A stretch of DNA of 64,000 nucleotides from NCBI GenBank assembly GCA_016235815.1, contig JACRIM010000045.1:1-64000 (forward strand), read 5' to 3'. Positions 15,483-38,577 of this stretch are shown one piece after another. Each line of letters starts with the position of its first letter. The stretch's first letter is position 1. Under the pieces are notes generated by a model. The model did no database searches and was not told the DNA's origin. It saw only the letters and a program-made list of their open reading frames with translations. A program made the position numbers and the translations under genes. Source of the DNA: Planctomycetota bacterium (GTDB taxonomy: Bacteria; Planctomycetota; Phycisphaerae; UBA1845; UTPLA1).

Positions 15483-15539
15483 CCTGGAGCATCATATTAG
15501 TGGCCATACCGACGCGCCCAACTAGAGGATATTACATGG

Positions 15540-19550: not shown

Positions 19551-19554
19551 TCGT

Positions 19555-20343
19555 CTAGCAACTCAGATTGACCGTTACTTTGCCAATGTAGGCTGGTATT
19601 CCGGCAGGTACGAATTCGCCACCGGGAACATTAATGGGGCCAAGTAATTGGCCCGGTCGCACGTCAGTTGTCTCGAATCCTGTGAACGACCGGATGAACG
19701 CCTCAAAATCGCGGTGGTTTTGTTGACGAATTTCTTGGTTGGAGTTCGCTCGCACAAACTCACATACCATGAACACCGACTGAACAGCCTCCCGCCGTTT
19801 GGCCTCGATGATCGTGCCTGCGAAGGCGTGAAGGAGTTGATACCGGAGTGAGGCGATCTCTGCCGTTGACCTCCCGAATATCGCACGTGCGAGCAACTCA
19901 ATACGGGCGGGAATATTCGAACCGGGTCGAGCTCCTCCGTCTTTATCATTCAGATAGGACGCGATGACCGGGCCGAACTCTTCTTCCGCTTTGGCTTCGA
20001 CACCCACAACGGTCTTGCGACCCTCGGCTTGCCCGACCAATATCTGATCGTGGTTGCGGTGCATGCCGCCAAACTTGTCAATTGGGGTTGCGACCTCGCA
20101 AATGCCTTCATCGATTTGCAGACCTCGGGTTGCGGCTTCACTCCTAAACAACTCCGCAAATGCCTCAGGCAGCGCTGGAGGTGTACCGCAGCGAAACCAC
20201 AGTTTGGCCAGCTCTTTTGCGCTGTAGCCATCCTTCCAGTGCATTGGCTGTTGCGGAGGGGCCAAGCTGAGCCAACTATCCTGGCCACCTTCAACTGAGT
20301 GGATGGGGTTTCCGTTGCTGTTTCGGAGTACCACAAGCGACAT
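19555..20343 (-). CDS. Putative PD-(D/E)XK-fold protein inside DISARM
   Basis: This 262-residue protein sits between drmD and drmMI. I recognise the HWKDGYSAKELAKLWF segment from uncharacterised proteins in defence loci but cannot name the family with certainty. Residues NHD99 and GVE116-A-K118, separated by a polar strand, match the D...ExK core of PD-(D/E)XK nucleases, with E78 or E83 upstream as a possible further ligand. The C-terminal half has no clear motif. If this is a nuclease, it would supply the cleavage that other DISARM components lack a clear candidate for. The spacing to both neighbours is short (40 and 4 bases). Confidence 0.75.
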   Translation of the reverse strand: MSLVVLRNSNGNPIHSVEGGQDSWLSLAPPQQPMHWKDGYSAKELAKLWFRCGTPPALPEAFAELFRSEAATRGLQIDEGICEVATPIDKFGGMHRNHDQILVGQAEGRKTVVGVEAKAEEEFGPVIASYLNDKDGGARPGSNIPARIELLARAIFGRSTAEIASLRYQLLHAFAGTIIEAKRREAVQSVFMVCEFVRANSNQEIRQQNHRDFEAFIRSFTGFETTDVRPGQLLGPINVPGGEFVPAGIPAYIGKVTVNLSC

Positions 20344-20383
20344 TACATGGTCCTTTCCTCGTCAAATGAAACAGGCTCTGCGA

Positions 20384-23300
20384 TCAGCCCGTTACCGGCC
20401 AGAGGTACACAAGGCCGACTGGCTCGATGCGGGTCGCTTTGACCTGATATAGCTCGCGTATGCGGTCTGGCTCGGTTTTCAACTCCGTCTCAATCGAGAG
20501 CAGGCGTTTCGTCCAGTACTTTCGGTTCGTTTCAAGTTGACGGAGTTCCGATTCGTCGTCGCCGAACTCGAATTTGAGCTGGGTAGCGTCGTAGCCATCG
20601 TATTTCGAGGCCGTTACGGCGATGTGTTTCTTCTGATTCTCCAGGATCTCGCGCATGGCCTTGGCCTCGGCATCGGCCCGTTCACCCAGTTTGCGTTCGG
20701 CGTCCTTCGCGTATTCACGAGCACGGGTATCAAGGTGCGGGAGAAGGTCTTCAATGTCACGAGGCGCGCCGGCTTGAAGTTGACTTTGGATGGTCGCGTT
20801 GACGGCACGGTTCGCTTTCGGGACGAGCGACGTGTCGAGAAGCTCTAGCGTCTTCGTTTCGGCGTCGCGGCCGTATGGCGCGAGCGAAACCTTGCGCACC
20901 TTCGGGTCTGTCCACCGTGCGGTGATAGGGACGATTTCTTCGTGGAGGCGAGCAGCATTGGGACCGTAGAGACACAGTCGGCCAAGTAGAACTACACGTG
21001 GAATTGCGTCAGTGGCGTGCGCAAGGCAAGCGCGCGATAAATCATGATGCACAAAGCCCTGCGCAGTAAATCGTCTGAGCAGGCGCTGCACGACGCGCTG
21101 CTCGAGGTGCAAGTGCACGGTTTCGTCATCGATGACGCCACGATCTTCGAAGACGACCGGGCGAATTGGCGATTCACGCCGCCACTCCCAAAACTTCTGG
21201 TCGCGATTGCGCGGCGTACGGAGTGTGTCCATCGTTTCCGACCAGGTTGGGTCGGCACCTTGACGCTGGTCGAGCGTCGGGAAGTGGTAGCGCGTCGGTC
21301 CTTCCGGGGTCTTGGTCGATTGCAGCGGCTCCGTGCCCATGAGTTCGAGAGCGCACGAGATCGCAGAGCGGAATTGGTCTTCCGACAGGCCGATGTGTTT
21401 TTCGGAGTCGGCTAGGCGCGTACGGAGGCGGTCGATCTGGGCGCGGAGTGCATCCTGTCGCTCACGGGCCGCCTCGAGTTCGTCTTCGACGGTTTTGCGG
21501 CGTTCTTTCTCAAGATCTGCCTCGTCGATTTCGCGTTCCATTTCGGCAATGCGGTCACGGCGAATGCCCTGTTTCAGTGTTGCCGTAAGCCGTGCGTCGA
21601 TGACCTGCGACAGGCTGCCGAGTTCACGCTTGATCAACTCGGTCTTGCGGACGAGCACCTGAAGGATACGGTCTTCGGGACGCTGCTTATAGAAGAAGTA
21701 ATGGCAGAACACTTTGTCGGACGGCTGGAGCTTGCGGTCGATGCGGCCGTTTCGCTGCTCCATGCGGCTGGGGTTCCATGGCACATCGAAGTGAAACAGA
21801 TTCCAGCAGTGTGCCTGGAGATTGAGGCCTTCGCGGGCCGCGTCGGTGGCGATGAGAATTCGCAGCGGGTGCTTGGCCGGATTCGCGTTGAATGCTTGCT
21901 TGATGTCCTCGCGCGTCGGAACACCGCCCGATTGGTCGGAGCGGTGTGCAGGCGTCGAACCGCAATACACGGCGATGCGCTCGGCGGCTCGGTCGGTGCC
22001 TTCGATCGCTGCGGAAATCTGCTGGTGCAAATATCGCTTGGTGTCTTCGTACTCGGTAAAGATGAGGATGCGAATGTTGTTCCACTTCGCGTCGCTCGGC
22101 GTACCGCTGTGCGTGGCGGGCAATCCCGGACACATCTTCTCGCGAATCCAAGCTATTAACCTGGTAACTCGGGCATCGGGACGGCCACGGGCCGATTCGG
22201 CGAGATTGGTCATCTCGTCGAGCAGCTTTTGTTCTTGCGCGAAGAGGTCGGACGCGGCCTTACCAGTAAGCGGGCCGGCCGTCGCGGCGGAAATTGCCTC
22301 GATCTGAGCGTCTTCTTCGGCTTGAAGCTCGGCTTCGGGGAGCGCCGCACGGTCGTCATCCGACCCTAGTGTGTCGGTGACGAGATCGAAGATGCCAGCG
22401 GGAGCGCGTTCCGGCTCGGTGCCCATCTTGCTTGCATCCCATTGGCGAAGGACGGTCTTTCGGTGAACGCGCAGAGTGCGTGCGAAGGCCTCGATTGAGG
22501 AAAGCAGGCGCTGTTGCAGGCCCGTGATGAGCAAACCGGCCGAAGCTTGTTTGCGCTTCGTTTCGGATTTCAGGCGCTCTTCGCGCAAACGGCGGTATTC
22601 GTCGAGTAAGGCGAAGAGTTTCAGATCGGGCGCATCAGAAGTGAGCTTGTCGATGTCAATTTGCACCACTTCTCGCTTCGGAAAGCCGCCTTGCACTTCT
22701 CGGATGTCGTCTTTGATTCGCCTAACCATCACGTCGTCGAGTACCTTCTTCGTGACGGGCACGCCGCGGCAGAACCGCTGCGGGTCGAGTATCTCCAGCA
22801 GTGCCGAGAAGCTGTTCGAGTGGCCGTTGTGCGGCGTCGCCGAGAGGAAGAGGCGATGCTCAAAGCGCGGGGCGATGTCGCGTACCGCGCGAGTGATCTT
22901 CGAATCGATGGCGTATTTCTGGCCGCTGGACGGTGCCGCGTGGTGGGCTTCATCCAAAATGAGCAAGGTACCGGGGCGAAAATCAAGCAACCAATCGCGC
23001 AATGGGCCAGCGTAGGCCTCGTCGATGAGCAGCCGCTGTGAAATCAGGAGCCGCGAGTGAGTTCCCCACGGATTCACGGCGAATCCGCGTTCCCGGCGGA
23101 CACGTGTGACGTAGTCTTTATCGAGAATCTCGAACGTGAGGCCGAAACGCGCTTCAAGCTCATCCTGCCACTGAATCAGCATCGAGGGCGGGCAGGAAAC
23201 GATGATCTCCTTGGCCTTCTTTCGGAGCAGCAGCTCGCGGGCGATGAGGCCGGCCTCGATGGTCTTGCCGAGCCCCACATCGTCAGCTATGAACAGATTG

Positions 23301-23692
23301 CAGCGCGGCAGGACCAGCGCTTTGCGAAGTGGCTCCAGCTGATACGCGTCAAGGTGGATGCCGGCTCGGAATGGAGACTGAAATAGTCGTGCGTCCGTTG
23401 ATGTGACGCAATTCCAACGAAGGGTATGGAGATACGCGGCAAAGAGCCTGGGCTCGTCAAAGCCTCGGGCGGCGACGGATTCCCACGCCTCTCCAGAGAG
23501 AATCTCCGCGTCGAGTTCGTGATTCCAGAGGACTTGCAGTTGCTGTCCCTGCGCATCGTCATCGACACACGCGAGTCCGACTACTGCATCTGTCCCCGAA
23601 GCTCGCAGGTCCAAGTTCTCCACAAGGTATGTCCGCTGACGGACGCGGACAATTTGACCTTGCGTGGGGATATGGTGCGAGAGTCCTGCCAC
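20384..23692 (-). CDS. drmD: DISARM SNF2-type helicase DrmD
   Basis: I set the start at GTG 23692: GGAG lies seven bases upstream and the protein then begins VAGLSHHIPTQGQIV, as family members do. The frame stays open 54 codons further, but that part does not look coding. The 1,102-residue protein has Walker A DDVGLGKTIEAGL (near 137-149), a DEAH box (LILDEAHHAAP), SATPHNGH, and motif VI RMEQRNGRIDRK. A long coiled-coil-prone segment follows (RDRIAEMEREIDEADLEKERR). DrmD marks class 1 DISARM together with DrmMI. As the first gene, it defines the operon's 5' end. Confidence 0.9.
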   Translation of the reverse strand: MAGLSHHIPTQGQIVRVRQRTYLVENLDLRASGTDAVVGLACVDDDAQGQQLQVLWNHELDAEILSGEAWESVAARGFDEPRLFAAYLHTLRWNCVTSTDARLFQSPFRAGIHLDAYQLEPLRKALVLPRCNLFIADDVGLGKTIEAGLIARELLLRKKAKEIIVSCPPSMLIQWQDELEARFGLTFEILDKDYVTRVRRERGFAVNPWGTHSRLLISQRLLIDEAYAGPLRDWLLDFRPGTLLILDEAHHAAPSSGQKYAIDSKITRAVRDIAPRFEHRLFLSATPHNGHSNSFSALLEILDPQRFCRGVPVTKKVLDDVMVRRIKDDIREVQGGFPKREVVQIDIDKLTSDAPDLKLFALLDEYRRLREERLKSETKRKQASAGLLITGLQQRLLSSIEAFARTLRVHRKTVLRQWDASKMGTEPERAPAGIFDLVTDTLGSDDDRAALPEAELQAEEDAQIEAISAATAGPLTGKAASDLFAQEQKLLDEMTNLAESARGRPDARVTRLIAWIREKMCPGLPATHSGTPSDAKWNNIRILIFTEYEDTKRYLHQQISAAIEGTDRAAERIAVYCGSTPAHRSDQSGGVPTREDIKQAFNANPAKHPLRILIATDAAREGLNLQAHCWNLFHFDVPWNPSRMEQRNGRIDRKLQPSDKVFCHYFFYKQRPEDRILQVLVRKTELIKRELGSLSQVIDARLTATLKQGIRRDRIAEMEREIDEADLEKERRKTVEDELEAARERQDALRAQIDRLRTRLADSEKHIGLSEDQFRSAISCALELMGTEPLQSTKTPEGPTRYHFPTLDQRQGADPTWSETMDTLRTPRNRDQKFWEWRRESPIRPVVFEDRGVIDDETVHLHLEQRVVQRLLRRFTAQGFVHHDLSRACLAHATDAIPRVVLLGRLCLYGPNAARLHEEIVPITARWTDPKVRKVSLAPYGRDAETKTLELLDTSLVPKANRAVNATIQSQLQAGAPRDIEDLLPHLDTRAREYAKDAERKLGERADAEAKAMREILENQKKHIAVTASKYDGYDATQLKFEFGDDESELRQLETNRKYWTKRLLSIETELKTEPDRIRELYQVKATRIEPVGLVYLWPVTG

Positions 23693-24140
23693 TAAACCAC
23701 TCCGATACGGTGCGGTACTGAGAATCCAATTTGGCGGGCAGTGAAAGTCGTTGGGCGATTTTTTTGGCGTAGGCCCGCTCGATTGAAAAAATCCGTCAAA
23801 TTTCAGGCAACTGCTTCGTCTGCATATTCTCACCGCGAACAGTGTCAGCCTCAAGGCTTACTATTCCCAATGCAAACTGGGCTTCCAAGAGGCAGGCCGC
23901 GGCCCCATTACCATTCTTAACCTGATCCGAGATTGCTGTAAGTTCACGGAGCTGGCATTAAAACAATACTCAATCCTATCGCGGCGAAAGCATCACCTCG
24001 CGCCAGATTACTTGATCACGACCAACATGTTTAAACAGGATTCTGATCCTCGCACTGTTCGTCCGCTTCGAAATTCGCGACATAACGCTCCGCTCTTATT
24101 ACACTCGCGGTCGAACCGGCCCATCGTGAATTAGCACGAC
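23693..24140. other. Intergenic stretch upstream of the DISARM operon
   Basis: This stretch should hold the DISARM promoter on the minus strand. A TTGAGG with GAGAAT 17 bases on is present around 23825-23860, but both boxes are imperfect. I see no convincing gene, repeat or terminator here. Confidence 0.35.
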
Positions 24141-27100
24141 CTATGGAAGCACCATCTGCAGGAATAACTGAATATCCTGTCCATCCGCGCAACCGTCGGC
24201 AGTCATGTCAGCGGCCAATATCGGTAATGGTGCGTCCGGTGTACGTAACAATGCTTTTACAAATCCTTCCAAATCAGACAGTTCCCGTGCACCGCTTCCA
24301 TCCATATCCCCCAGTATGCCCGGGCCAATCTTGACGACGTGATTTGCCGATGGGACGGACAGGTGCATGAAGCCATCCGGGTCGAAGGCGATCCCATGTA
24401 CTGGGAGATCGGTGAGGAATTCGCTGGTGGCTCCAGTCGTAATGTCGACCTCCATGACCCGATTCGTCGGTGCGCCGCATGCCACGAAGAGATTGCCATG
24501 GAAGATGCCTGGCGGGGCGATAGCCTGACTGATGGCCCCGGCTAGGCCCGTTGCAAAGTTCGCGTCCAGCACTGTCCCATCGCCGGCGATTTTTCGCATG
24601 ATGCCGTCGTTGGCGCCGGTGACATATGAGATGTTTGATTCATCGATGCAAAGCGCGCGGAGCGACTGCCCCGCGGCCGTGTAGAAGGCAGTCAGAATAC
24701 CGCCGCTCAGACGAGAAACGGAATCGCCGTCAACGGAGCCGAGCAGTAGGTCGCCATTGCCTAGCAGGACCATTTGTCCAATATGTCCGAGCGACCCATC
24801 GACGAACTGTTCGCAGATAGTTCCGCTGTCTGGCTTCACAAAGTAAACATAACTGCCGCCGATCGTATCCCGGCCGCCGACAATGATTAGATTGGGCGTG
24901 CTGCACGCGCTTGGCCATACATTGTGCGTGTCTATCAGAACCGATTCCGGGCGAGACATTGAGGCGCCGAACTGTTGCTGAGTGCAATTAGTCAGAATTC
25001 GCCACACCTTTCCGAATCCAGCCACATCAGTTCGCCCCGCATAGAGTTTGAACGGAAGGCTGCCGGCACAATTGTCGTCCCGCGTGCCCCCTTCGTGGGC
25101 GAAGCCCAGGATCGCCGGGCCAGTCACGATGGATGGCGGGCAGAGTATTGAACATGAATACCGCGGATCAAGCCCGCAGCCGCAAGACGTCGGTGTGATT
25201 GCGTTTGGATCGTTGGGGCAACCATCGATGCAATCGGCAGTCCCATCGTTGTCGGTATCAACGTCAGGATTACCGCATCCGCATTGACCCGGTGCGATCT
25301 TATTCGGATCGTTTGGGCATCCGTCGTCGCAGTTGGCCGTGCCGTCACCATCGTCGTCTGTGTCTGGGAGGCCGCACCCGCATTGGCCAGGTGCGATCTT
25401 GTTGGGATCCATGGGGCAGCCATCCTCGCAGTCAGGCGTGCCGTCATTGTCCGTATCGGTGTCGGGAATTCCGCAACCACAAACCCCGGGCGCAGTTTTC
25501 AGCGGGTCAAGTGGGCAGTCATCCTGGCAATCGGGCGTGCTATCACTATCTGTATCCGTATCCGCCACACCGCAGCCACATAGGCCCGGTACGGTCTTAT
25601 TGGGATCGCTGGGGCAACCATCCGTGCAATCCGGCGTCCCATCCATGTCCGTGTCGCCTTCAGGAAGTCCACAGCCGCAGAATCCTGGCATGGTTTTATT
25701 GGGGTCCGACGGGCAACCATCGCAGGCATCGCCGGCGGAATCGCCATCGGCATTGCTTTGCGTAGGATTGGCTATCAAAGGGCAGTTGTCCGTGGCATCC
25801 GGGATTCCATCACCGTCTGAATCTCGCGGGCCAATCGTGAAAACGGCATCGTTGCTGACGACGAGGCCGCAGCCATCTAACTTCACTATGCAGTCGTATC
25901 GCCCCGCACTATTGGCCGCGATCGGATTGATCGTAAGAGTTGGAGTCGTCGCGCCGGAAACACTGCCGCCATCAAAGAGGTCAACGTCATCCTTTCGCCA
26001 TCGGTAGCTCAATGTGCCGGCACCGCTCGCGGCGACACCGAAGCCAACTGTTTCGCCGAGTGGGGCAGCCTGGCTGACGGGTTGTTGCGTAATCGTTGGT
26101 GCGGCCCCAGATGGACCCCAGCGCGCCCAATGATAGTAGTTCGGTAGGTATGCCCCGAGAATCAACTCGCCGTTAAATGACCCAATCGAGTGGACTCGAT
26201 GACCGGTGTCAGCTGTTGGGATGCTCCCAAAGGGAAAAGTCCAATTGGAGCCATCGTAGTTAGAGATAATCGGGACTTGATTCTGCAATCCACAAGCGAT
26301 TAATGATCCGTTGTATGTGCCGAGTGCGGTAAATGTAGAAACGCTAAAGGTGTTGTTTAATGAGGTCCAGCTCGCACCATCCCATGCCCCGATATGATTG
26401 GCCGAGATCCCGCCCGCCTGAGTAAACGTGCCCCCCATAATCAACTTTCCATTATGCACTGTCAGTGAATCAACAGTACTACTTGTGCCAACTGCTGACC
26501 CGACTGCATGCCAAGCAGTACCATTCCACCGAGCGATGTTGTTGGCGACAACCCCACCGGCGAATAGGAACTCTCCTCCAACATATAGTTGATTATTAAA
26601 GACAGCAAGAGCATATGCATTTGAGTCCAATCCAGTTCCGACGGCTTGCCAGGTTGTTCCGTTCCAACGAGCAACTCGGTTTGCCGAAAGGACGCCCGAA
26701 GAAGTAAAGCTACCGGCAGCGTAGAGGGCACCGTTGTAAACAGCGAGGGCATAAACGCTCCCATTCAGACCGTTACCCAATGCCTGCCATGAGGAGCCAT
26801 TCCATTTGGCGATGTTATTTGCGGAGCTACCTCCGGCCGACTGAAACGAACCTGCGACAACTAGGTCTCCGTTGAATATGGCTAATGCATTGACCGCTCC
26901 GTTAAGACCCGTGCCGAGCCGTTCCCAACGCCAACCGTCCCAACGGCCAAAACCATTGGTTCTGGCGCCGCCTGAAGTCGTAAAGTCGCCACCCGCAATC
27001 AGCTCGCCGTTGAATATTGAGAGGGCTCGTACCCTCGAATTGAATCTGCCCCCAAATGCCTGCCAGTACGTGCCATCCCACCTCGCTATGTTTGAAACCG

Positions 27101-28229
27101 TGTATCCGTCAGTGTCGGAAAACAACCCTCCCGCAATCAACTGCGCTTCATAGACGCATAATGAGTAGACTTGCCCATTGGTTCCGGAATTTCCGACGGG
27201 TTGCCAAGTCGTCCCATTCCATCGAGCAACACGAGTCGCGCTCGACCCTCCTGCAAATGTAAAGCTACCGCCCGCGATTAGGCCACCGTCGAAAATCGTC
27301 AAACAATTTACGGTGCCATTCATACCTGTTCCGAGTGTTCTCCAATCCTTGCCGTCCCATCGGGCTATGTAATTGACGCCCCCTCCGCTGAAATCTCCTC
27401 CAACGATGAGTTCGCCGTTAAAAACGGCAAGTGAAAGTACGGCATTGAGTTTGCCTCCGGTTAGATCACTCCAAGTTGTGCCATTCCATCTCGCCACTCT
27501 GTTAGCGAGTACGCCTCCAGCAATGGAAAAATTACCGCCAGCAATCAGTTCCCCGTTATATGTTGCCAGCGCATATACACTGCTGTCCATACCCGAACCA
27601 AGCGCCTGCCAATTAACTCCGTTCCACTTGGCGATACGATTGGCCGGAGTTCCGCTCGCAGATGTAAAAGCACCACCTGCGACCAATTCGCCGTTACAGC
27701 TTGTCAAACACGAGACTGCACCATTTACGCCTTGACCGATTGGCTCCCACGATGTTCCATTCCATTTCGCAAGATAATTAACAGTCTGGCTGCCGGAATG
27801 AGAAAAGCTGCCTCCAGCGATTAGCATTCCATCATGTACGAATAAGGCCGTAACTGCGCTATTAAAGCCTGATCCCATTGGTGACCATTTCGACCCATCC
27901 CATGCGGCGATATTGTTTACCGAGATGCCTCCAGCCGATCCAAAGCCGCCTGCAACCACAAGCAAGGGCACTTGTGGTCCTCCGCCGTCCGGATCCCAGG
28001 AAGTTGTTGCAAAAACATAACCCGAGACGCCTGGAACCGGACCGACCGGCCGCCAGTTGTATGTACAGGACCCCTGTCCGCGGGCATTAGCAACGACGCT
28101 GAGCAAGACCACGAACACAGCGACAATTAGACGGGGTCCACGGCGCGCAATTCCGTGGGCGATAGAATTCTCGATGGAATTGAAAACGCAGCAGACGACC
28201 CATGAACTGGTCATAACGAGATGTTGCAC
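24141..28229 (-). CDS. Secreted propeller protein with thrombospondin-3-like repeats and dockerin-like end
   Basis: The start is placed at GTG 28229, seven bases after GGGAGG; an upstream in-frame ATG (28253) would put the ribosome-binding site inside the gene. A signal peptide lies at about residues 30-52 (RLIVAVFVVLLSVVANARG), preceded by an unusually long N-terminal extension. About fourteen repeats of the pattern ARWNGTTW...NGELIAGGxF fill residues 60-690, likely beta-propellers. Then come an Ig-like domain, six or so repeats of DTDNDGTPDCEDGCP type (calcium-binding thrombospondin-3-like, with paired cysteines), a 300-residue module shared with two other proteins here, and a dockerin-like pair of loops (GDMDGSG... 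and ADMTADGCADGQD). Function is unknown; surface display or complex assembly is likely. Confidence 0.85.
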   Translation of the reverse strand: MQHLVMTSSWVVCCVFNSIENSIAHGIARRGPRLIVAVFVVLLSVVANARGQGSCTYNWRPVGPVPGVSGYVFATTSWDPDGGGPQVPLLVVAGGFGSAGGISVNNIAAWDGSKWSPMGSGFNSAVTALFVHDGMLIAGGSFSHSGSQTVNYLAKWNGTSWEPIGQGVNGAVSCLTSCNGELVAGGAFTSASGTPANRIAKWNGVNWQALGSGMDSSVYALATYNGELIAGGNFSIAGGVLANRVARWNGTTWSDLTGGKLNAVLSLAVFNGELIVGGDFSGGGVNYIARWDGKDWRTLGTGMNGTVNCLTIFDGGLIAGGSFTFAGGSSATRVARWNGTTWQPVGNSGTNGQVYSLCVYEAQLIAGGLFSDTDGYTVSNIARWDGTYWQAFGGRFNSRVRALSIFNGELIAGGDFTTSGGARTNGFGRWDGWRWERLGTGLNGAVNALAIFNGDLVVAGSFQSAGGSSANNIAKWNGSSWQALGNGLNGSVYALAVYNGALYAAGSFTSSGVLSANRVARWNGTTWQAVGTGLDSNAYALAVFNNQLYVGGEFLFAGGVVANNIARWNGTAWHAVGSAVGTSSTVDSLTVHNGKLIMGGTFTQAGGISANHIGAWDGASWTSLNNTFSVSTFTALGTYNGSLIACGLQNQVPIISNYDGSNWTFPFGSIPTADTGHRVHSIGSFNGELILGAYLPNYYHWARWGPSGAAPTITQQPVSQAAPLGETVGFGVAASGAGTLSYRWRKDDVDLFDGGSVSGATTPTLTINPIAANSAGRYDCIVKLDGCGLVVSNDAVFTIGPRDSDGDGIPDATDNCPLIANPTQSNADGDSAGDACDGCPSDPNKTMPGFCGCGLPEGDTDMDGTPDCTDGCPSDPNKTVPGLCGCGVADTDTDSDSTPDCQDDCPLDPLKTAPGVCGCGIPDTDTDNDGTPDCEDGCPMDPNKIAPGQCGCGLPDTDDDGDGTANCDDGCPNDPNKIAPGQCGCGNPDVDTDNDGTADCIDGCPNDPNAITPTSCGCGLDPRYSCSILCPPSIVTGPAILGFAHEGGTRDDNCAGSLPFKLYAGRTDVAGFGKVWRILTNCTQQQFGASMSRPESVLIDTHNVWPSACSTPNLIIVGGRDTIGGSYVYFVKPDSGTICEQFVDGSLGHIGQMVLLGNGDLLLGSVDGDSVSRLSGGILTAFYTAAGQSLRALCIDESNISYVTGANDGIMRKIAGDGTVLDANFATGLAGAISQAIAPPGIFHGNLFVACGAPTNRVMEVDITTGATSEFLTDLPVHGIAFDPDGFMHLSVPSANHVVKIGPGILGDMDGSGARELSDLEGFVKALLRTPDAPLPILAADMTADGCADGQDIQLFLQMVLP

Positions 28230-28732
28230 GACAATGCCTCCCTCCACATCCAATGAACGACCTGGCCGGAGGCGGTTGATGCCTCAGGCTCGAATGTGGT
28301 TCCCCAACCTAAGCGAAAATCGTATCAGACCGGCGCATCAGATTCAAGAAACGAGCTGAACAAAATACCGCGAATCGTGGGCCAGACTCTTTGCATTGGG
28401 TGCGTCGCCCTAAAGGTGTGATTCAGGATTCAATTTGATCGCCGGGAGGCCCGGTTGGGCCTCATGAGGTATCGGCACCATTCCGGCGCCGACGATATGT
28501 TTGAATGGGCCTGTTCGCTTATTTCCACCATATTCCGACAGGTCCGACCTGATCTGTCGGGGGTGTCGAATAGGCTCTCAGACGTGACAGTCATATGACA
28601 GCTTGATTAGATTTTACTCTCATCTACATCAAGGTTGCAGAATCTTTCGGGTTCCTTCAAGATGAACGACCGATCGAATCAGGGCCGAACTCGAATCATC
28701 CCACGGCCCTGAGTGTTGTTGCGTGGAGCCCT
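28230..28732. other. Intergenic stretch between divergent genes, with a palindrome
   Basis: It must carry promoters for the secreted protein (minus) and the HKD-helicase operon (plus). A perfect ten-base palindrome GTCATATGAC is at 28590-28599, flanked by TGACA/GC context, about 135 bases before the operon start. GGAG lies six bases before ATG 28733. I see no other gene. Confidence 0.4.
28590..28599. promoter_or_regulatory. Possible operator palindrome upstream of the HKD-helicase operon
   Basis: GTCATATGAC is a perfect palindrome, with TGACAG also appearing twice around it (28585-28600). It could bind a dimeric regulator. Ten bases is short enough to arise by chance. Confidence 0.25.
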
Positions 28733-30016
28733 ATGTTTCTGACCCTTGAAGATCCCCGTGCGAAGATTCAAGGCTCCCGCGACCCGCTAGGTGTTCAGCC
28801 GCTTTGGTCTGCATTCGGGCGTCATGTCGTCACGAACCTGACCACACAATCCACATCGATCCGCGGCTTCACAACTCTATTGCTTGGACGTTATTTTGGA
28901 CATCGCCTGATCGAAGAGCGAAAGGCGGGGGAGGAGGATGCGTTGGCCATCTTCCTTCGCACCGAGCAGGCCTGCGCCTATGCGAGATTCATCTGCCTGG
29001 CTGAACCGGGAGAAATCCGAGGGATCGAGCGTGTGTCGGTCGCCTCAAAAAACAGCGAGGGGACAATTAAGATTGGCAACGACTTTGAATCATGGATCAT
29101 GTCAGATCAGAAGACGTACGGCCTCTGGGGTTTGTACTCCGTTCCTGCCCGGGTTTCCGGCCTGATTCCAGACGGCACTCTGGGAGTCGCGCCGCGTGCC
29201 ATGGAACTAATCGAGGAACACTACCTTCCGATTCTGAAGGAAATTCTCCCACGATTGTTAAACTTGCTCCTCCATGGCGGAACACTCAGCGCCAGGAAGA
29301 ACGATTCCATCCTAAAAGTGTTGTCGAAAATTCTCGGCCCTTTGAATGCGGCTGAGCATGCGTTCTACGCCAGCGCTCTCCGAGATTCCAATGCGTGCCT
29401 CGACCAGACCGCGGCTGCCCGACAAAAACTCCTAGCATCGCTCCTTCAGGCAAATGAGATGCTCGACACCGACCTAGGCCGGGAAGAGATCCTGGCAATC
29501 GCTAAACACGTCCATCACCATGATCCTGAACTCGGGAGGTACCTTCGTCGCATTGTGGCGATGGAGGCGTTCCTTGCACCAGCCGAATCCTTCTTCGAGT
29601 ACCTTCAGTACCAGCACAATCAGTCCATCTCGAAGATCGCCGGAAAAGTGGCGAAGAATTGGGGGCGACCACCCCACATGTCAATCGACGACTTCAAGGA
29701 ACTGCTGGCCGAGATCGAATCCGTTGTCGGCCCGGATTTGGCCAGCTTGATGTCAAAGACCTATCGTACCCTCGATGAGTCAAGATTTAAAAGCGCAATC
29801 CATGATCTGCTTGATTGGAATCGCCTCGTGATGCACAAGCGCCGCGCTGCACCCTGGATACTTCACACTGACGGGCGACTTGAGGTTCGCTATCGCGGTG
29901 CTGAACAGTCGATGACGGGCTCGGAGGGATGGGGCGATCTATGGCGAAACAGCTATTTCCTGCCTTCGCTGCAAACCGTCGCGAGACAGCTAAGTAATGG
30001 GGCGACGTTCGCATGA
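28733..30016 (+). CDS. Unknown protein, first gene of HKD-helicase operon
   Basis: A 427-residue soluble protein with a GGAG site before the ATG. The N-terminus (DPLGVQPLWSAFGRHV, then TTSIRGFTTLLLGRY and a FLRTEQACAYAR segment) feels like a conserved family found with helicase genes in defence islands, but I cannot name it. Its arrangement of a short N-terminal sheet, then a helical body, resembles proteins of the DUF6361 type in style only. No nuclease or nucleotide-binding motif is visible. Its last codons overlap the next gene (ATGA), so it is made together with the HKD protein. Confidence 0.8.
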   Translation: MFLTLEDPRAKIQGSRDPLGVQPLWSAFGRHVVTNLTTQSTSIRGFTTLLLGRYFGHRLIEERKAGEEDALAIFLRTEQACAYARFICLAEPGEIRGIERVSVASKNSEGTIKIGNDFESWIMSDQKTYGLWGLYSVPARVSGLIPDGTLGVAPRAMELIEEHYLPILKEILPRLLNLLLHGGTLSARKNDSILKVLSKILGPLNAAEHAFYASALRDSNACLDQTAAARQKLLASLLQANEMLDTDLGREEILAIAKHVHHHDPELGRYLRRIVAMEAFLAPAESFFEYLQYQHNQSISKIAGKVAKNWGRPPHMSIDDFKELLAEIESVVGPDLASLMSKTYRTLDESRFKSAIHDLLDWNRLVMHKRRAAPWILHTDGRLEVRYRGAEQSMTGSEGWGDLWRNSYFLPSLQTVARQLSNGATFA

Positions 30017-32070
30017 GCGAGTCGATTCCACAATCTGCTCTGTCGGAAGCGTTGCAGCGTCATATCAAAGGACGCCGCGTCCGCGTGGCGGTCTTCACGA
30101 CGTTCACATTCGACCCCGCGTTTTTTGAACTTCATGTCCTGCCGTGTCTCTTCGACCGACCCTTCAGCCAGGTCGAAAAGGTGCGCCGCATTCAACTTGA
30201 AGATGCCCTGCGAACTCTTGAGGAAGCTGCTGTCTACTATGACCGAACAGCCCTCGCTCAGGATGCGCAGCCCGCCCAACTCGATTTCCGGAGGATCGAC
30301 GTGCGGCGAAAGACCGGAGTGTTTCACCCCAAGCTGGCGCTGCTCCTGTTGGATCAACCTGCCGAACCCGGAGTAGCGCCGCGACAGGTACTCCTGGCGG
30401 CCGTTATGTCAGCAAACCTGACCCGCGCGGGCTGGTGGGAAAACGTCGAAGTCTGTCATATCGAGGAGATTCCAGATCGCGATGAAGGGGCTGAAAAGTG
30501 CCCTTATCGCGCCGACTTACTTGCGCTTCTGCGGCAGGTTCGCGCCGCCGGCGACGAGAATGAGAATCATGCCGGTTTAGATCGTATCCATGAGTTCCTT
30601 ATTCGTCGGGCCACGCGCGACGCGCCCGTTCAGCATTCCGCACGAGGCCGATACTACACCCGGCTGTTCATGGGACAGTCGGACCTGCCGTCCTGGCTGG
30701 AGGAGCTGGGACTGGCCAAACATGAATGGAACCTTGAGATCATCTCACCTTTTTTTGATTCTGGTGAGCCAAGGGCGTTGCGGCACCTGATCGAGGTGAT
30801 GAAGCCGACCCAGGTCCGACTATTCCTGCCTGAAGATATTGATGGAACTGCCCAGGTCGACCGACGATTCTATGAGCGAGTCGTGGCAGACCAAATCGCC
30901 AAGTGGTCCAGCCTGCCGGACACAATTCTTCGTCCCAGCGGGCGCAAAGCCACTCTGGGGGCTGCCGCCCGCAGAGTCCATGCCAAGGTCTATCGATTCT
31001 GGAACAAGTCGGGGCAGGAGATCGTCCTTTGCGGTTCGGTGAACCTGACAACGGCCGCGCACAGTCGCATGGGTGCAGGGAATCTCGAAGCCGCTTTTTT
31101 AGTGCAGCAGGACGAATCAACAAAGAAACTCGATTGGTGGCTGCGCCCCCTCGACGGTGAGCCGAAGGACTTCGCCGAATCCCAACCTTGCGAGGATGAG
31201 GCGGCGAGCGGCGTTCCAATTGACTTGTCGCTCCAATATGACTGGACCCATGGCGTCCTGTCCTACCGTTTGACCGAGGCACCTCGCGGGGCATTGACGA
31301 TTGCAGCGGTCGATGGAGATGTCCTGTTCACAATCCAGGGTCCTCAATGTTGGAACTGGATTCAATGCACGTCGCGCGACGCCGAATCGATTCGTGAACT
31401 GCTACCCTCGACCAGCTTTGTGGAGATCCGCCACAGCCGGGGCACATGGCGAATTCTCATTCGTGAGGAAGGCATGATCAATCGCCCCTCCCTCTTGAGG
31501 GACCTCACTCCCGAAGAGATCCTCCTCTATTGGTCCTTGCTGACCCCCGAACAGCGAGAGAGTTTCATCGGTGAGAAACTCCAAGATGCGGCCCTATTGG
31601 AAGGGTTGAAAATCACCCGACGGAAGATTCAACTCCGCGGAGAGACGCTCTTCGATCGCTTTGCAGGGATCTTTCACGCCTTCGGGAGGCTTGAGGCGCA
31701 TGTTTGCCGCTGCCTGAAGGACGGAGAATCGAAAGAGGCGGAGGCGAGAATGTTCGGTGCGAAGTATGACTCGCTCCCGGTACTTCTGGAGAAGGTTCGA
31801 ACCCCCGGGCAGCCTGATCCTGTGATCGCCTATCTCACGTGCCTGTGCGCATTACAGACACGCAAACAGCTTTCAAAGGAGTTCCCGGATTTCTGGCGGG
31901 CGAATTCAACAGAGGCATGCCGACTGGATGAGGCGTTGAAGTGTCTTCCTTCACTCCGCCAAGCCCTTCCATTGGATATCGGTACGGATCGCGACACGTT
32001 CATGGTGTGGTATGAACAGGCGTTCATGACTCGCGCTCATGCAATCGAGGGCGGCCATGAAGCCCATTAG
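30013..32070 (+). CDS. Phospholipase D/HKD-like nuclease of the helicase operon
   Basis: A 685-residue protein with two HKD-like halves. The first has H105-x-K107 with SANLT (133-137), the second H323-x-K325 with GSVNLT (341-346) and a following NLEAAFLV strand. The Asp of the classic motif is not in its usual place in either half, so the site may be altered, but the His-Lys and Ser/Asn elements are kept. Family members cut DNA or phospholipid phosphodiesters. The C-terminal 300 residues have no motif I recognise. It overlaps the gene before by four bases and the helicase gene after by fourteen. Confidence 0.82.
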   Translation: MSESIPQSALSEALQRHIKGRRVRVAVFTTFTFDPAFFELHVLPCLFDRPFSQVEKVRRIQLEDALRTLEEAAVYYDRTALAQDAQPAQLDFRRIDVRRKTGVFHPKLALLLLDQPAEPGVAPRQVLLAAVMSANLTRAGWWENVEVCHIEEIPDRDEGAEKCPYRADLLALLRQVRAAGDENENHAGLDRIHEFLIRRATRDAPVQHSARGRYYTRLFMGQSDLPSWLEELGLAKHEWNLEIISPFFDSGEPRALRHLIEVMKPTQVRLFLPEDIDGTAQVDRRFYERVVADQIAKWSSLPDTILRPSGRKATLGAAARRVHAKVYRFWNKSGQEIVLCGSVNLTTAAHSRMGAGNLEAAFLVQQDESTKKLDWWLRPLDGEPKDFAESQPCEDEAASGVPIDLSLQYDWTHGVLSYRLTEAPRGALTIAAVDGDVLFTIQGPQCWNWIQCTSRDAESIRELLPSTSFVEIRHSRGTWRILIREEGMINRPSLLRDLTPEEILLYWSLLTPEQRESFIGEKLQDAALLEGLKITRRKIQLRGETLFDRFAGIFHAFGRLEAHVCRCLKDGESKEAEARMFGAKYDSLPVLLEKVRTPGQPDPVIAYLTCLCALQTRKQLSKEFPDFWRANSTEACRLDEALKCLPSLRQALPLDIGTDRDTFMVWYEQAFMTRAHAIEGGHEAH

Positions 32071-35000
32071 CATTGATAGCGCCCGCCAGTTGATTGATTT
32101 TTCGGGCTCGCTTGCCCGAGGGTCGAGCCTGCTCGCCGATCAGCAGCTGCAGGGCACTGTGGCCGCGTACAACATGCTGGCCCGCAATCGCATCGCCTAT
32201 CTGGCGGACGAAGTTGGCATGGGTAAGACATACGTGGCCTTGGGGATCATGGGGTTGCTTCGGCACGTCCAGCCCTCAGCCCGCATTCTCGTCCTCGCAC
32301 CGCGGGGGAATATTCAGGCAAAGTGGCTTAAGGAGCTGAATAATTTTGTGCGGGGCAATTGGAGATGTGATGACAATTGCGTGAAGTCGATCCAGGGAGC
32401 TCCCGCCCGGAAGGCGATCGCAGTCGAAAATCTGATTCATCTGGCCGACGCACTTGCGGTGTGCGACACGCACGATCTCTTTCTGCGAATGACGAGTTTC
32501 AGTCTTGCCACCAAGAAGGCCAGGGATCGAAAACGACATGCCGATCGCATTGTTGAGAAACTGCCTGCGATCGATGCCAGGTTTCTAAACGCAAATAATC
32601 CTGAAGAATTTCAGGATCGCTTTGGAGCCGCACTCAACCACGCCATTCCCAAGATCGACCTATTGATCGTGGATGAGGCCCACAACCTCCGACACGGGAT
32701 CGGCAAGCATTCCAGCACGCGGAATCGTATTCTGTCGAGAGCCTTCGGGGGTGCTCCCGAACCGCTCGCCAAGTGTCCGTGGTACCGACCCAGGGTGCGC
32801 CGCATCTTGTTGTTGTCTGCGACTCCCTTTGAATACGACTACACCGACATCGTTCGCCAACTTGAGGTATTTGGTCTTGCCGACGGAAAGGTTGTCGACG
32901 CCCACGGAGACGATCCTCGGCCGATCCGGCTGCTTCAAGAGCCAGGTGTCTCCGAACAAATCAAACGTGAGACGCTCGGCCGTATGCTGATTCGACGAGT
33001 TTTCAAGATCACGGTGGGCAATCAGGAACTCACGAAAAATTTATACCGTCGCGAGTGGCGAAACGGCGGTTACGAACAGCATGACCACCCCCTGAACTTG
33101 GACGACACGCGACAACGCCTCATCGTCGCCCTCATGCAGAAGAAAGTTACGGAGTTGCTTGGGGATCAACGATTTAACAACAACTACCAAATCGGGATGC
33201 TCTCTTGCTTCGAAAGCTTTACTGAGACGTTGGCCCACCGAGAAGCCACCCAATCACCAAGCGAGGCCGAAGAGGAAGCGGCGTCCGACGAAGAGCGCGT
33301 ATTCGACGGCGATCAAGAGGCGACCGCTGACGAAAAACTCGGCCTCGATTCCAACATCATTTCGAGAATTAGCCGTTCTTATCGCCAGACATTTAACGTT
33401 CCTCTTCCGCATCCCAAGCTCGACGCAACGGCCGACGACCTTATGGCCGCCATCGACACCGGAGAGAAAGCCTTGGTCTTCGTCCGTCGGGTGGCCACGG
33501 TGGGTGAGCTCAAAGAGAAACTGGACCTCATCTTTAATCAACGGCTTCGAGAGAAGATGAAAGGAGCCCTTTCGAATGAGTTGTCCTCAGAAGTGGATCG
33601 CATCTTCAGGCAATATGAGAAGGAACGAGGCCACGCTCGTCCACATCCGTCGAGTGCTTCATCTGCACGGGATGATTTAAATGTCAAAGGCGTGGGTCTG
33701 GACGATGACAGGGGAGGAACAGACACATTCTTCTCATGGTTCTTCCGTGGAGAAGGCCCCTCAGGAATATTGTCCGGTGCTGCCTTCCAAAAGAACCGCC
33801 TTTCCTCCGACAGTTCTGTTTATTCGACGTTCTTCGAGGAGGATTATGTCAGTTGGCTTTTGGGGCGTCCCGAGGACGTTCTAAGCAAGCTTGCGAAAGT
33901 CACGAATCTATCTCAAACCGATCTTGATGACCGGCTTCGATCGCGAGCCTTCGCCCTATTCCGAGCGAGGACCAAGCGCAAGGAAGGTTATCCTCGTTAT
34001 TACGTCTTCGAGGCATATCAAATTGCGGCCCTGGAACTACTCTCCCCATTGCAAGGCGCTGTTGGGCAACAGGCAAAGACGATTCTTGATCTTCGATTTG
34101 AGGATTCAAGCTCCGAGGCCCAACCTCCGCCGGCAGGGTTCCCCGGACCGGAGGGCAATATCGGATTGGATTCGTTTGTGACCGAATTGGTCAAGCGGCC
34201 TGACCTGTGTCGGGCGATCTGGCCGGACGAAAACATCGAACCGTTTGCCGAACGGTTTCGCCGGCGTGAGCAGCGACGCGAGCTCCTGAGCGCCATGTGT
34301 CGTCTGGGGGTCAGCTTCATCGATTTGTATCTCGTGGCCATCAACCAATTCGGCTCGTTTGAACTGGCCGAACGCGGGGCCCGCTCGGCAACGGAGCGTC
34401 CCGAATTGGATCTGGCAAGGGGATTCATCGAACTACTGCAACGACAACAAACTCAGAAAGGGCTTCATGCATATCGAGAGCTCTCCGAAGCGGCCAAGGC
34501 ATTCGACACCCTGATCGCGGTGAATTTCCACAAGGTTCAATCCAAATCACTCAACGAAGTCGCCGAGATCTTTGGCCGGGCGCTCCAGCACCAAGTTCCA
34601 ATCGCCGGAATGAATGGGCAGGTGAATCGGCGCATTGTCGGCCAATTCCGCATGCCGGGCTTCCCGTTGGTATTGGTCACCACCGATGTGCTTCAGGAGG
34701 GGGAAGACCTGCACACGTTCTGCCGCAAGGTGATTCACTACGGTATCACCTGGACGCCGTCGGCATTGGAGCAGCGCACAGGTCGGGTGGATCGAATCGG
34801 GAGCCTTCTGCATCGTCAGATGGAGGGTCTTGATTCTCTGCCGGTGTCCGAAGACTTCATCCAAGTCCACTACCCTCACCTGCAGGACACGGTCGAAGTC
34901 CTCCAGATTCGCCGGGTCCTCCAACGGCTCAACACGTTTCTTCGGCTCATCCACCAAACACAACCACAACCCGACCCGGGCGACAGTAAGATTGATGTCG

Positions 35001-35656
35001 GTCGCGAAATGCTCAATCCAACTGGAGACTTCCAACAGCTGAAAGAGCCACTCAAATCGGGCTTCCCCATTCAACCCAAATGGCTTCAGGGCGAGCCTTT
35101 GACGATCCGCCGCCACCTCGATGCTAAAGGACTGCTGTCGCATTTCGCAGCTTGTTGGAACCAGTTCTGCCAGCGGATCCAAGTTCGGGAGGGATCTCAA
35201 AGCAATCCACGAATCCGCACAGGTACTTTGACGATGGTGGGCGGAGACGTTTTGAGGACGGGAACACCGGCGGATGCCCAATCAATTCGAACTCAACAGA
35301 TTCGATTGCAGCTTCGCTCCCAGGCCCATGGCGACGCAACCCTTCTTCATTGCGTAAGCTCGGTCGGGTTGCTCAATCTCGATCGGGATGAGAACCTTGA
35401 TGAATTGTTCAAGCTGCACAAGAAACTCGATCAGCCCAAGATCTGCATCCGATACATCAGCCGTCGGGCTTTATACGAAGTGAACATCGAGGGAGACATC
35501 CTCTTTCATCCCGACACGACCGATTTCTCCGAAGTGGAACACCTCGTCCTGCGTACCGCTAAGGCAGCCGATTACATCGAAGAGACGATGCTGGGATGCG
35601 ACGCCGAGGCATTTACTCACGATGGAGAGGAGGCCGAACATGACGCGAGCGATTGA
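32057..35656 (+). CDS. SNF2/HepA-type helicase of the HKD operon
   Basis: I start it at ATG 32057, overlapping the previous stop, rather than a farther upstream codon inside the HKD gene. The 1,199-residue protein has Walker A ADEVGMGKTY (50-59), VDEAH (about 205-209), LLLSATPFE, and motif VI EQRTGRVDRIG (around 905-915), preceded by VTTDVLQEGEDLH, typical of SNF2-family translocases. Between the lobes is a large insert with charged, low-complexity stretches (SEAEEEAASDEE). It probably moves along double-stranded DNA and licenses the HKD partner. It differs from DrmD in the insert and in its partners. Confidence 0.88.
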   Translation: MKPISIDSARQLIDFSGSLARGSSLLADQQLQGTVAAYNMLARNRIAYLADEVGMGKTYVALGIMGLLRHVQPSARILVLAPRGNIQAKWLKELNNFVRGNWRCDDNCVKSIQGAPARKAIAVENLIHLADALAVCDTHDLFLRMTSFSLATKKARDRKRHADRIVEKLPAIDARFLNANNPEEFQDRFGAALNHAIPKIDLLIVDEAHNLRHGIGKHSSTRNRILSRAFGGAPEPLAKCPWYRPRVRRILLLSATPFEYDYTDIVRQLEVFGLADGKVVDAHGDDPRPIRLLQEPGVSEQIKRETLGRMLIRRVFKITVGNQELTKNLYRREWRNGGYEQHDHPLNLDDTRQRLIVALMQKKVTELLGDQRFNNNYQIGMLSCFESFTETLAHREATQSPSEAEEEAASDEERVFDGDQEATADEKLGLDSNIISRISRSYRQTFNVPLPHPKLDATADDLMAAIDTGEKALVFVRRVATVGELKEKLDLIFNQRLREKMKGALSNELSSEVDRIFRQYEKERGHARPHPSSASSARDDLNVKGVGLDDDRGGTDTFFSWFFRGEGPSGILSGAAFQKNRLSSDSSVYSTFFEEDYVSWLLGRPEDVLSKLAKVTNLSQTDLDDRLRSRAFALFRARTKRKEGYPRYYVFEAYQIAALELLSPLQGAVGQQAKTILDLRFEDSSSEAQPPPAGFPGPEGNIGLDSFVTELVKRPDLCRAIWPDENIEPFAERFRRREQRRELLSAMCRLGVSFIDLYLVAINQFGSFELAERGARSATERPELDLARGFIELLQRQQTQKGLHAYRELSEAAKAFDTLIAVNFHKVQSKSLNEVAEIFGRALQHQVPIAGMNGQVNRRIVGQFRMPGFPLVLVTTDVLQEGEDLHTFCRKVIHYGITWTPSALEQRTGRVDRIGSLLHRQMEGLDSLPVSEDFIQVHYPHLQDTVEVLQIRRVLQRLNTFLRLIHQTQPQPDPGDSKIDVGREMLNPTGDFQQLKEPLKSGFPIQPKWLQGEPLTIRRHLDAKGLLSHFAACWNQFCQRIQVREGSQSNPRIRTGTLTMVGGDVLRTGTPADAQSIRTQQIRLQLRSQAHGDATLLHCVSSVGLLNLDRDENLDELFKLHKKLDQPKICIRYISRRALYEVNIEGDILFHPDTTDFSEVEHLVLRTAKAADYIEETMLGCDAEAFTHDGEEAEHDASD

Positions 35657-36041
35657 ACTTGCCAAACGAATCGCATCGGGCCGACCCGACGAATGGACTG
35701 TTCGGGCAAACCATATCTCAGTTTGTTTTCCATCGTTGGATCGCAAACAAAGTGTTTACATTACCGCCAGCGAGAACGAAATTGTGCTGACATCGACTGT
35801 CCAGAAGGCTGGCGACATAAAGTCAGCAGCCAATCGTCGAAGACTAGCAAGAATGGCCTGGCGGCGCAACGCCGATCACGATCTCATCACTTTTGCGTTC
35901 GACGCGGTGAATAATCTCGTCGGGCTTGTTCGCCATCCACGCAGCACACTCGACCCAGCGGAGCTTGAGTTGTACGTTGACACCTTGGCTCGGGAATGCG
36001 ATCGATTTGAACATGTATTGATGGGCGAGGACTCACAATAA
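35640..36041 (+). CDS. YbjN/secretion-chaperone-fold-like small protein
   Basis: The ATG at 35640 follows GAGGAGG by six bases; the gene overlaps the helicase stop by 17 bases. The product of 133 residues has the strand-helix pattern of YbjN and type III secretion chaperone-like folds: VRANHISVCFPS, QSVYITASENEIVLTS, then FAFDAVNNLVGLVRHP and a C-terminal helix ELYVDTLARECDRFEHVL. Such proteins usually bind a partner and stabilise it. Here that would be the helicase or the HKD protein. The fold call is by pattern only. Confidence 0.75.
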   Translation: MTRAIELAKRIASGRPDEWTVRANHISVCFPSLDRKQSVYITASENEIVLTSTVQKAGDIKSAANRRRLARMAWRRNADHDLITFAFDAVNNLVGLVRHPRSTLDPAELELYVDTLARECDRFEHVLMGEDSQ

Positions 36042-37632: not shown

Positions 37633-38577
37633 TCAGCCCTTGGCGAAGGCATGGAGGTCACCGGCGATCTCGATCAACGTCTCACGCTGTTCTACATCCT
37701 GCCGCCATGTCTCGGGAATGGCCGCAACGCCGTTGAAGGCGCCGCTGATGGCGCCGGCGATGCAGCCGACGGAGTCGGAGTCGCCATCCATGTTCACCGC
37801 GGTGATAACGGTCTGTCGATAATCGCTCGGGGATTGCATGAAGGCGTACAGCGCGCACGCGGTGGCTTCATCAGCGGTCCATGCGCCGCCGAGCACGCCG
37901 TAGGCTGCCTTGGAATCGCGATGCAGAACCATCGGAACCTGCAGGACCTTGTCAGCGAACTCGCCGCTGATCGGGCGCGTTCGCTCAACCAGCCGGCGGA
38001 GCATGTCGTCGGGGGGCATGCCATCCAGTGCCCAACTTACAAGCAGCGCTGTGGCGACACCGCCCGCCGTGGCGGCGGGATGACCATGCGTCAGTTCGCT
38101 GGTCTGCGCGGCCATGCGCGTGATCTTGTCCTCGTCACCGTGCCAGGCCAGTCCGATCGGCGCGGTGCGCATGGCGGTGCCGCAGCCTTTGGAGTCGTTG
38201 TTCCCCGGTGCCCGCCAATTCGGGTCTTTTGCCAACGCGCGACAACCGGCCATGCAGGTCATTCCGGGGGCGCGGTCGTTTTCAGCCGACTGAGACCACA
38301 ACACAAACTGCCGTGCAGATTCGGCGACGAATTCCGCCTCCGATTGGGTGCCATGAGACAGGATCGCACGGGCCAGGGCGAGCGACATCTGGGTGTCGTC
38401 GGTAAACGTGCCACGGGGGTGGCGTTGCGACGGGTGCAGATCGGTGATGCCGTCTGCGCCGAACTGGGCGCGGATCGCGCTGAGCCGAAGGAACTCAACC
38501 GGCCAGCCCAGGGCATCACCGATGGCCAGGCCCAGCACGCAGCCCAGGTAACGGTCCTGTGATGGGATCGTTGTCAT
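37633..38577 (-). CDS. ADP-ribosylglycohydrolase family protein
   Basis: The 314-residue protein holds the metal-binding residues of the DraG/ARH family: GTFTDDTQMSLAL (TDDT motif), CGTAMRTAPIGL, and NMDGDSDSVGCIAGAISG (the C-terminal D-x-D-x2-G-x3-GA motif), with the N-terminal GLAIGDALG. These enzymes use two Mg2+ ions to remove ADP-ribose from proteins, nucleic acids or small molecules. In a defence setting the partner could be an ADP-ribosylating toxin. The nearest candidate in the window, at 6943, is far away, so no pairing can be claimed. Length is normal for the family. Confidence 0.9.
   Translation of the reverse strand: MTTIPSQDRYLGCVLGLAIGDALGWPVEFLRLSAIRAQFGADGITDLHPSQRHPRGTFTDDTQMSLALARAILSHGTQSEAEFVAESARQFVLWSQSAENDRAPGMTCMAGCRALAKDPNWRAPGNNDSKGCGTAMRTAPIGLAWHGDEDKITRMAAQTSELTHGHPAATAGGVATALLVSWALDGMPPDDMLRRLVERTRPISGEFADKVLQVPMVLHRDSKAAYGVLGGAWTADEATACALYAFMQSPSDYRQTVITAVNMDGDSDSVGCIAGAISGAFNGVAAIPETWRQDVEQRETLIEIAGDLHAFAKG

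Follow-up and report, generated by a model that had tools for sequence, protein, structure and literature searches.

What is the four-gene operon that lies at positions 28733-36041 of a 64,000-nucleotide stretch of Planctomycetota bacterium DNA (assembly GCA_016235815.1, contig JACRIM010000045.1, positions 1 to 64,000; below, the window)? A reading made from the letters of the DNA (the sequence-only reading) had proposed an undescribed defence system. Comparison with named systems contradicted this: genes A, B and C are remote members of PDC-M27, a three-gene candidate in PADLOC-DB 2.0.0, and B and C match ZacB and ZacC of Azaca. A, B and C are already catalogued as PDC-M27-like or Azaca-like; new here is gene D together with the C-terminal tail of C. 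We consider it somewhat likelier than even that the locus is a mobile operon with a defence role, similar in kind to Azaca and PDC-M27; in this four-gene subtype, C would act as translocase, B as BfiI-type nuclease, A as coupler and D with the tail of C as gate.

The operon consists of four overlapping open reading frames (ORFs), all on the plus strand:

28733-30016, plus strand: gene A, 427 amino acids (aa); all-helical, PDC-M27A-like, proposed adaptor or regulator.
30013-32070, plus strand: gene B, 685 aa; predicted double phospholipase D (PLD)-type nuclease with ZacB, PDC-M27B and PLDc_2 matches.
32039-35656, plus strand: gene C, 1205 aa; SNF2-type helicase or translocase with PDC-M27C and Helicase_C matches.
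35622-36041, plus strand: gene D, 139 aa; predicted secretion-chaperone/YbjN fold, recognized by the D profile and weakly by YbjN.

Successive genes overlap by 4 (A/B), 32 (B/C) and 35 (C/D) bases, in agreement with the one-strand operon described by the sequence-only reading. To gather relatives, three aligned A proteins served as the query for a scan of genome contigs, which yielded 24 loci (denoted by L numbers). A, B and C were found in order and on one strand in 22 of them by phmmer and profiles, spread over several phyla; the remaining two are L047, a 3.2 kb contig ending inside A, and L048, which showed none of the genes. The sequence-only reading had suggested a check of gene co-occurrence, and this extended to D: it is present in all seven loci nearest to the window (L034-L039 and L041; fused to C in L035) and was detected at E ≤ 0.01 in 0/15 of the other A-B-C loci. 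As far as sequence goes, the operon, its conservation and the intact motifs of B and C are firmly established.

Window A, B and C match all models of PDC-M27, and the gene order is the same. In PADLOC, A matched PDC-M27A with an E-value of 1.7e-19 (best stretch residues 223-418 only), B matched PDC-M27B with 1.3e-15 (residues 11-491) and C matched PDC-M27C with 5.2e-78. The scores for A, B and C were 68, 55 and 261 bits as compared to 605, 805 and 1304 bits for a typical PDC-M27 set on a Rhodoferax plasmid (L028) and 571, 729 and 1227 bits for an equally typical set on a Vibrio plasmid (L029). Since the window scores lie far under those of both plasmid sets, we regard the window set as a diverged relative, that is, on its sequences, a diverged branch of PDC-M27. 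In the portion of PMC10855318 consulted, PDC entries are described as 'guilt-by-embedding' candidates that are not experimentally validated. A literature search for PDC-M27 returned no paper. Typical sets L028 and L029 are devoid of gene D and of the extra domain of C, whereas the window set has both.

Azaca, whose founding paper is reportedly that of Millman and others, 2022, shares with the window set the gene order A-B-C, a PLD-type B and a helicase C. The Azaca reference set came from one Pseudomonas genome (1/298) with confirmed ZacA, ZacB and ZacC in the order A-B-C. ZacA and ZacB were each represented by 5/6 rows (L072 being broken up for ZacA) and ZacC in the tree also by 5/6 (L075 left out). 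Window B fits ZacB (2.6e-19, residues 7-379) better than PDC-M27B, and hhalign comparison of the B family with ZacB gave a probability of 98.0 and an E-value of 2.6e-13; in sequence, B and ZacB are clearly related. C matched ZacC with 1.8e-21, and no counterpart of the C tail or of D was seen in ZacC. Azaca differs in its first gene: ZacA is a DUF6361 protein (2.5e-33), and window A gave no match to ZacA or DUF6361 (PF19888) at E ≤ 1 in PADLOC and Pfam. Profile comparison of A with a single ZacA reached a probability of only 0.8, and with five ZacA an E-value of 8e-4 and a probability of 24.6 over 254 columns, which suggests at most a remote kinship. Azaca is listed among validated antiphage systems in the accessible part of PMC10855318. 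Its mechanism is listed as unknown in the literature consulted. Literature searches for ZacB with phage and helicase and for DUF6361 with phage found no paper. Apparently, PDC-M27, catalogued and uncharacterised, and Azaca can be joined in a broader A-B-C architecture with a putative BfiI-type nuclease.

This nuclease assignment concerns gene B, which the sequence-only reading had described as a double HKD protein with shifted aspartates. Its PLD kinship (Pfam PLDc_2, E 1.5e-6) and the doubled motif were recovered, but the HKD aspartate was not: HxK(x)4D occurred in 0/22 aligned B proteins. The pattern HxK...SxN...NxE occurs twice, and 13 motif columns are invariant in 22/22 aligned rows:

30322-30450, plus strand: first motif of B, residues 104-146 (H105, K107, S133, N135, N144, E146).
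30979-31089, plus strand: second motif of B, residues 323-359 (H323, K325, G341, S342, N344, N357, E359).

In plasmid sets L028, L029 and L033, aligned apart from the main rows (alignment A2), 11 of the 13 columns were still invariant, S133 and E146 being variable. Searched against the PDB, the B profile matched a single sequence at E ≤ 0.01, that of BfiI, a restriction enzyme (2C1L, 1.2e-7); the HAK of the second motif aligns on H105-K107 of BfiI, and the GxN and NxE positions of BfiI also line up. According to the part of PMC10388346 available, BfiI cuts without Mg2+ and its K107A mutant is inactive. On account of the invariant pattern and the BfiI alignment, the 'shifted Asp' was re-read as a BfiI-type site, and B is a predicted nuclease of BfiI type without the HKD aspartate. 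BfiI has a single motif in each chain of its homodimer and possesses a DNA-recognition domain, whereas window B carries both motifs on one chain and a Pfam scan identified no recognition domain in it.

Abortive infection would be compatible with such a protein: triggered B would cut all DNA of the cell, like HamA of Hachiman, and D or A, both candidate restraints, would hold it back beforehand. Hachiman (HamAB) likewise combines a nuclease with a helicase, and in the part of PMC12278908 consulted its helicase restrains and then releases the nuclease, with degradation of phage and host DNA. The window set has more genes, an unrelated nuclease fold is assumed, and HamA (DUF1837) gave no match to A-D at E ≤ 1 in Pfam and PADLOC. 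The sequences cannot separate abortive infection from selective cutting of invading DNA, and we rate it as quite possible, if short of an even chance.

Gene C had been described as a 1,199-residue SNF2-type protein with a charged insert. Helicase class (Pfam Helicase_C, 7.6e-11) and insert were confirmed, and the length needs correction: C has 1205 aa from the first ATG, and 1199 aa only if started at the ATG six codons on. Its features are as follows:

32201-32230, plus strand: helicase motif I (Walker A), residues 55-64, from an alignment of 25 C proteins.
32672-32683, plus strand: DEAH box (motif II), residues 212-215, from the same alignment.
33221-33358, plus strand: acid-rich insert, about residues 395-440, from sequence and alignment.
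34769-34795, plus strand: motif VI, residues 911-919, from alignment.
35069-35653, plus strand: C-terminal extension, residues 1011-1205; predicted secretion-chaperone/YbjN fold, from the L035 homologue.

Motifs I, II, III, V and VI are kept across the 25 aligned rows, with DEAQ in place of DEAH in L042-L045. The charged insert sits between motifs III and V, where two aligned relatives have shorter acidic stretches. With helicase motifs kept in C and paired motifs in B, the sequences bear out the translocase-plus-nuclease plan, and we infer nuclease activity for B and translocase activity for C.

D and the tail of C set the window apart. PADLOC gave no match for D, and in Pfam its YbjN match (0.012) stayed below the cut-off; the D homologue of L036 reached 2.7e-4 and 21.6 bits against YbjN (cut-off 22). 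Beyond window residue 1010, C extends by 175-198 aa in 7/8 D-bearing rows and by 364 aa in L035, where D is fused, as compared to 4-18 aa in 16/17 D-lacking rows of the 25-row alignment. In these sequences D and the C extension are strictly coupled. A D-profile match within the C frame was found in three separate records (L035, L070 and L082). Comparison of C extension and D profiles by hhalign gave a probability of 69.9 and an E-value of 4.1e-5. In a model of the natural tail-plus-D frame of L035 (mean pLDDT 79.9, pTM 0.75), helices and strands succeed one another alike in the two halves. The D half matched 8q8o_A (Z 11.4, rmsd 3.0, 121 aligned) and the tail half 1s28_A (Z 10.6, rmsd 3.3, 120 aligned) as well as E. 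coli YbjN 6vu7_A (Z 9.3, rmsd 3.2, 130 aligned); the first match beyond type III secretion chaperones/YbjN and uncharacterised entries had a Z of 5.3. For D and the C tail alike, the predicted fold is thus that of type III secretion chaperones and YbjN, in line with the chaperone-like character that the sequence-only reading had ascribed to D. The class has heterodimeric members, among them SycN-YscB (title of 1xkp), and D may likewise pair with the C tail.

Relatives of this fold also occur in predicted antiviral operons, as the TY-chaperones of PMC9503650 (section 3.8), and the available text of that section proposes the relatives from conflict systems as peptide-binding chaperones. The systems of PMC9503650 centre on ADP-ribosylglycohydrolases (ARG), and its main text is without phospholipase D, SNF2, SWI2 or HKD. 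These ARG-centred systems were considered in view of an ADP-ribosylglycohydrolase gene near the operon (37633-38577, minus strand; PF03747, 3.1e-75). An ARG homologue stands beside only one of the 30 loci L028-L057 (L055), and ADP-ribosylglycohydrolase was therefore not counted as part of the system.

Among 382 genomes of the phylum (denoted by G numbers), the D profile found two further strong cases: in G163, D lies inside the C frame (L070), and in G314 it adjoins a C fragment and has a stop inside. Weaker D matches occurred in 28 of the 382; one of them (L062, 454-1884) is a serine/threonine protein kinase with a D-like, YbjN-type stretch. L082 (MT835507.1), a record from human faeces labelled 'UNVERIFIED: Bacteriophage sp.', contains A and B together with a frame of C in which D is matched; it is either phage cargo or mislabelled bacterial DNA.

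D could merely stabilise the tail of C and have no part in sensing or gating, which we find somewhat unlikely. Such a role would suit the loss or absence of D together with the tail and the fusion of D to C in three records; the fold, however, serves peptide binding of partner proteins, and peptide binding is what PMC9503650, as far as consulted, proposes for the relatives from conflict systems. In a bolder reading, the D/C-tail heterodimer would itself be the sensor: it would capture an unfolded or exposed invader peptide, or the N-terminus of A, and switch on a BfiI-type nuclease carried by a moving translocase. This is a doubtful proposal at present; if true, a peptide-binding chaperone pair would trigger a helicase-nuclease immune machine.

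The N-terminus of A enters this proposal by virtue of its structure model. AlphaFold2 gave a confident, all-helical model of A (mean pLDDT 88.0, pTM 0.87), in which residues 1-14 have a pLDDT below 50, yet T4 and D7 are conserved among relatives. On this ground the poorly ordered N-terminus appears to behave as if folding on a partner. Searches with the model gave no close structural relative: Foldseek found nothing at E ≤ 0.001 in the PDB (best 0.57) or in BFVD, VIA-align reached a best Z of only 4.6, and the best sequence match in the PDB had an E of 0.11.

Under the favoured reading of an Azaca/PDC-M27-kind operon, C, an ATP-driven DNA translocase or helicase, would locate invading DNA and travel along it. 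B would cut DNA, its two half-sites on one chain probably forming a single metal-independent active site, and the helical adaptor A would couple B and C. D and the C-terminal domain of C would form a two-domain secretion-chaperone-like module that may bind a peptide of A, of B or of an invader protein and in this way tether or gate the nuclease. Pfam and PADLOC gave no methyltransferase match for A-D; self would thus be spared by target structure, by the trigger, or, in an abortive system, not at all. The added subtype, a secretion-chaperone-fold protein travelling strictly with a matching translocase domain, yields a concrete testable proposal for the restraint or triggering of such nuclease-translocase systems.

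Homology, genomic context and patchy spread indicate that the operon probably serves anti-phage or anti-plasmid defence. The nearest seven loci comprise two from Acidobacteriota, one from Planctomycetota, three from Proteobacteria and one from Myxococcota (record titles and tree labels). The D-bearing C proteins form one clade with a support of 100/99 in a 33-row tree, which was built with the extension columns included; its long branches L033, DrmD and L040 make the joins there unsure. In the A tree, which serves as an independent check, a branch separates the D-bearing proteins from the rest, with lower support (81/93). Alignment A6 (21 rows) omits L047, L048, L053 and L054, and A8 (22 rows) omits L047, L048 and L053. 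The A profile matched only 5/382 phylum genomes; the four besides the window were weak (1.3e-9 to 7.8e-4), each with an adjacent B match. The spread of the operon is patchy. In L054 (Zoogloea oleivorans, 8911-11287), A is split into two ORFs around a 268-aa ORF.

This distribution bears on the idea of a housekeeping DNA repair unit, which we judge very improbable. A SNF2 helicase with a nuclease would suit repair too, and a reference title in PMC9503650 names the YbjN-like Deinococcus protein DR_1245 as partner of DdrB, a repair protein; the DR_1245 structure 4h5b_B matches the C tail (Z 10.2, rmsd 4.3, 137 aligned). An A profile confined to so few genomes of the phylum and an operon scattered across several phyla speak against such a role, as do the adjoining DISARM and restriction-modification (RM) genes and the presence of a C match beyond shared helicase motifs in just 1/101 relatives. 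These 101 relatives were also tried as a source of C orthologues: 45 of them match single-protein C, but beyond the window's own match only shared helicase stretches were found (best 2.2e-10), and the matches were accordingly not taken as orthologues.

A search of plasmids with A by tblastn gave no match, yet relatives of A do occur on plasmids, at 18-25 percent identity. This raises the alternative that the operon interferes with plasmid or other conjugating DNA and not with phage. Plasmid-borne relatives could serve competition between plasmids, and an operon lacking a methyltransferase leaves self unmarked by modification. The chromosomal and defence-island settings of the loci argue against this alternative, as does the relationship of B and C to Azaca, listed as antiphage in the part of PMC10855318 consulted; we consider it distinctly unlikely. 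A third, more distant A-B-C-like set was found in Fuscovulum (L033), in which A had no PADLOC match and B matched ZacB with 7.2e-9. L032, on a Mycobacterium riyadhense plasmid, was tried as a B-C pair and rejected, its upstream protein having no PADLOC match. A UvrD helicase gene lies just upstream of the Azaca-type sets L074 and L075 and of the Fuscovulum set, accompanied in L074 and L075 by a PD-(D/E)XK nuclease gene; in L031, a pair of this kind lies next to a remnant of C.

The window operon lies, as the sequence-only reading had stated, in a defence island. The source genome comprises 4.58 Mb in 60 contigs. Upstream of the operon, on the other strand, follow a secreted repeat protein (24141-28253) and, beyond it, the DISARM genes:

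7636-23854, minus strand: DISARM set drmD, drmMI, drmA, drmB and drmC, identified by PADLOC and adjoining the operon.

DISARM itself contains distant relatives of two of the proteins: the SNF2 helicase DrmD matches C (1.1e-17) and the PLD protein DrmC matches B (0.0036). The operon differs from it in being without drmA, drmB and a methyltransferase; in PADLOC, neither DrmA nor DrmB comes out as best match for any of A-D.

Enrichment near known defence genes, a further check suggested beforehand, was seen for type I RM. Flank scans covered chosen ORFs, 46 from seven D-bearing loci and 67 from 14 other loci; in the latter, type I methyltransferase (MTase) matches were found in the flanks of four of the 14 D-lacking loci. 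HsdM-like genes were detected by phmmer in the flanks of L043, L046, L050 and L051, that is, in 4/22 loci, as compared to 0.10 expected in 251 kb of flanks (Poisson P 4.4e-6). The expectation was derived from 40 N6_Mtase matches (E ≤ 1e-50) in about 124 Mb of 22 genomes, genome sizes being rounded. In the D-bearing loci, the 46 flanking ORFs matched 80 families, each family by one ORF at most; ten flank proteins tested singly included a type I restriction endonuclease (REase) in L037 (5.3e-136) and a DpdE-like helicase in L038 (1.2e-172).

Several observations weigh against the favoured reading. The match of C to ZacC is little better than that to DrmD, and its alignment covers mainly motifs V-VI. 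The HsdM test was picked after the flank scan had shown type I MTases, and all four HsdM-linked loci belong to the D-lacking branch; only 2/10 singly tested D-bearing flank proteins match PADLOC at 1e-20, the other eight giving none. In L046 (Chitinophaga, 12169-15720), C carries a 275-aa tail without D; this tail did not match the C extension and matched the last helix of D weakly (E 0.0036, probability 9.1). The sequence similarity between extension and D is not conclusive, the pTM of the fused L035 chain only hints at D-tail pairing, and a Foldseek search with the L035 fusion model gave nothing at E ≤ 0.001 (best 2.8e-3). Furthermore, a literature search found no phage experiment on the window set, PDC-M27 or relatives.

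Additional genes were noted in the window. Between the DISARM genes lie a cytidine/dCMP-deaminase-type protein (13937-15436; PF00383 4e-17, PADLOC 'dCTPase' 5.5e-164) and a DUF6946 protein (19555-20343). The minus-strand gene at 54221-55747 encodes a serine/threonine kinase that also has a 3-keto-disaccharide hydrolase-like domain; it matched PD-T4-6 in PADLOC with 4.1e-36, probably via its kinase domain. Two big neighbouring genes of 623 and 587 aa (58481-62112, minus strand) were also observed, the first of them with weak GTPase/dynamin matches (4e-6 and 1.4e-4).

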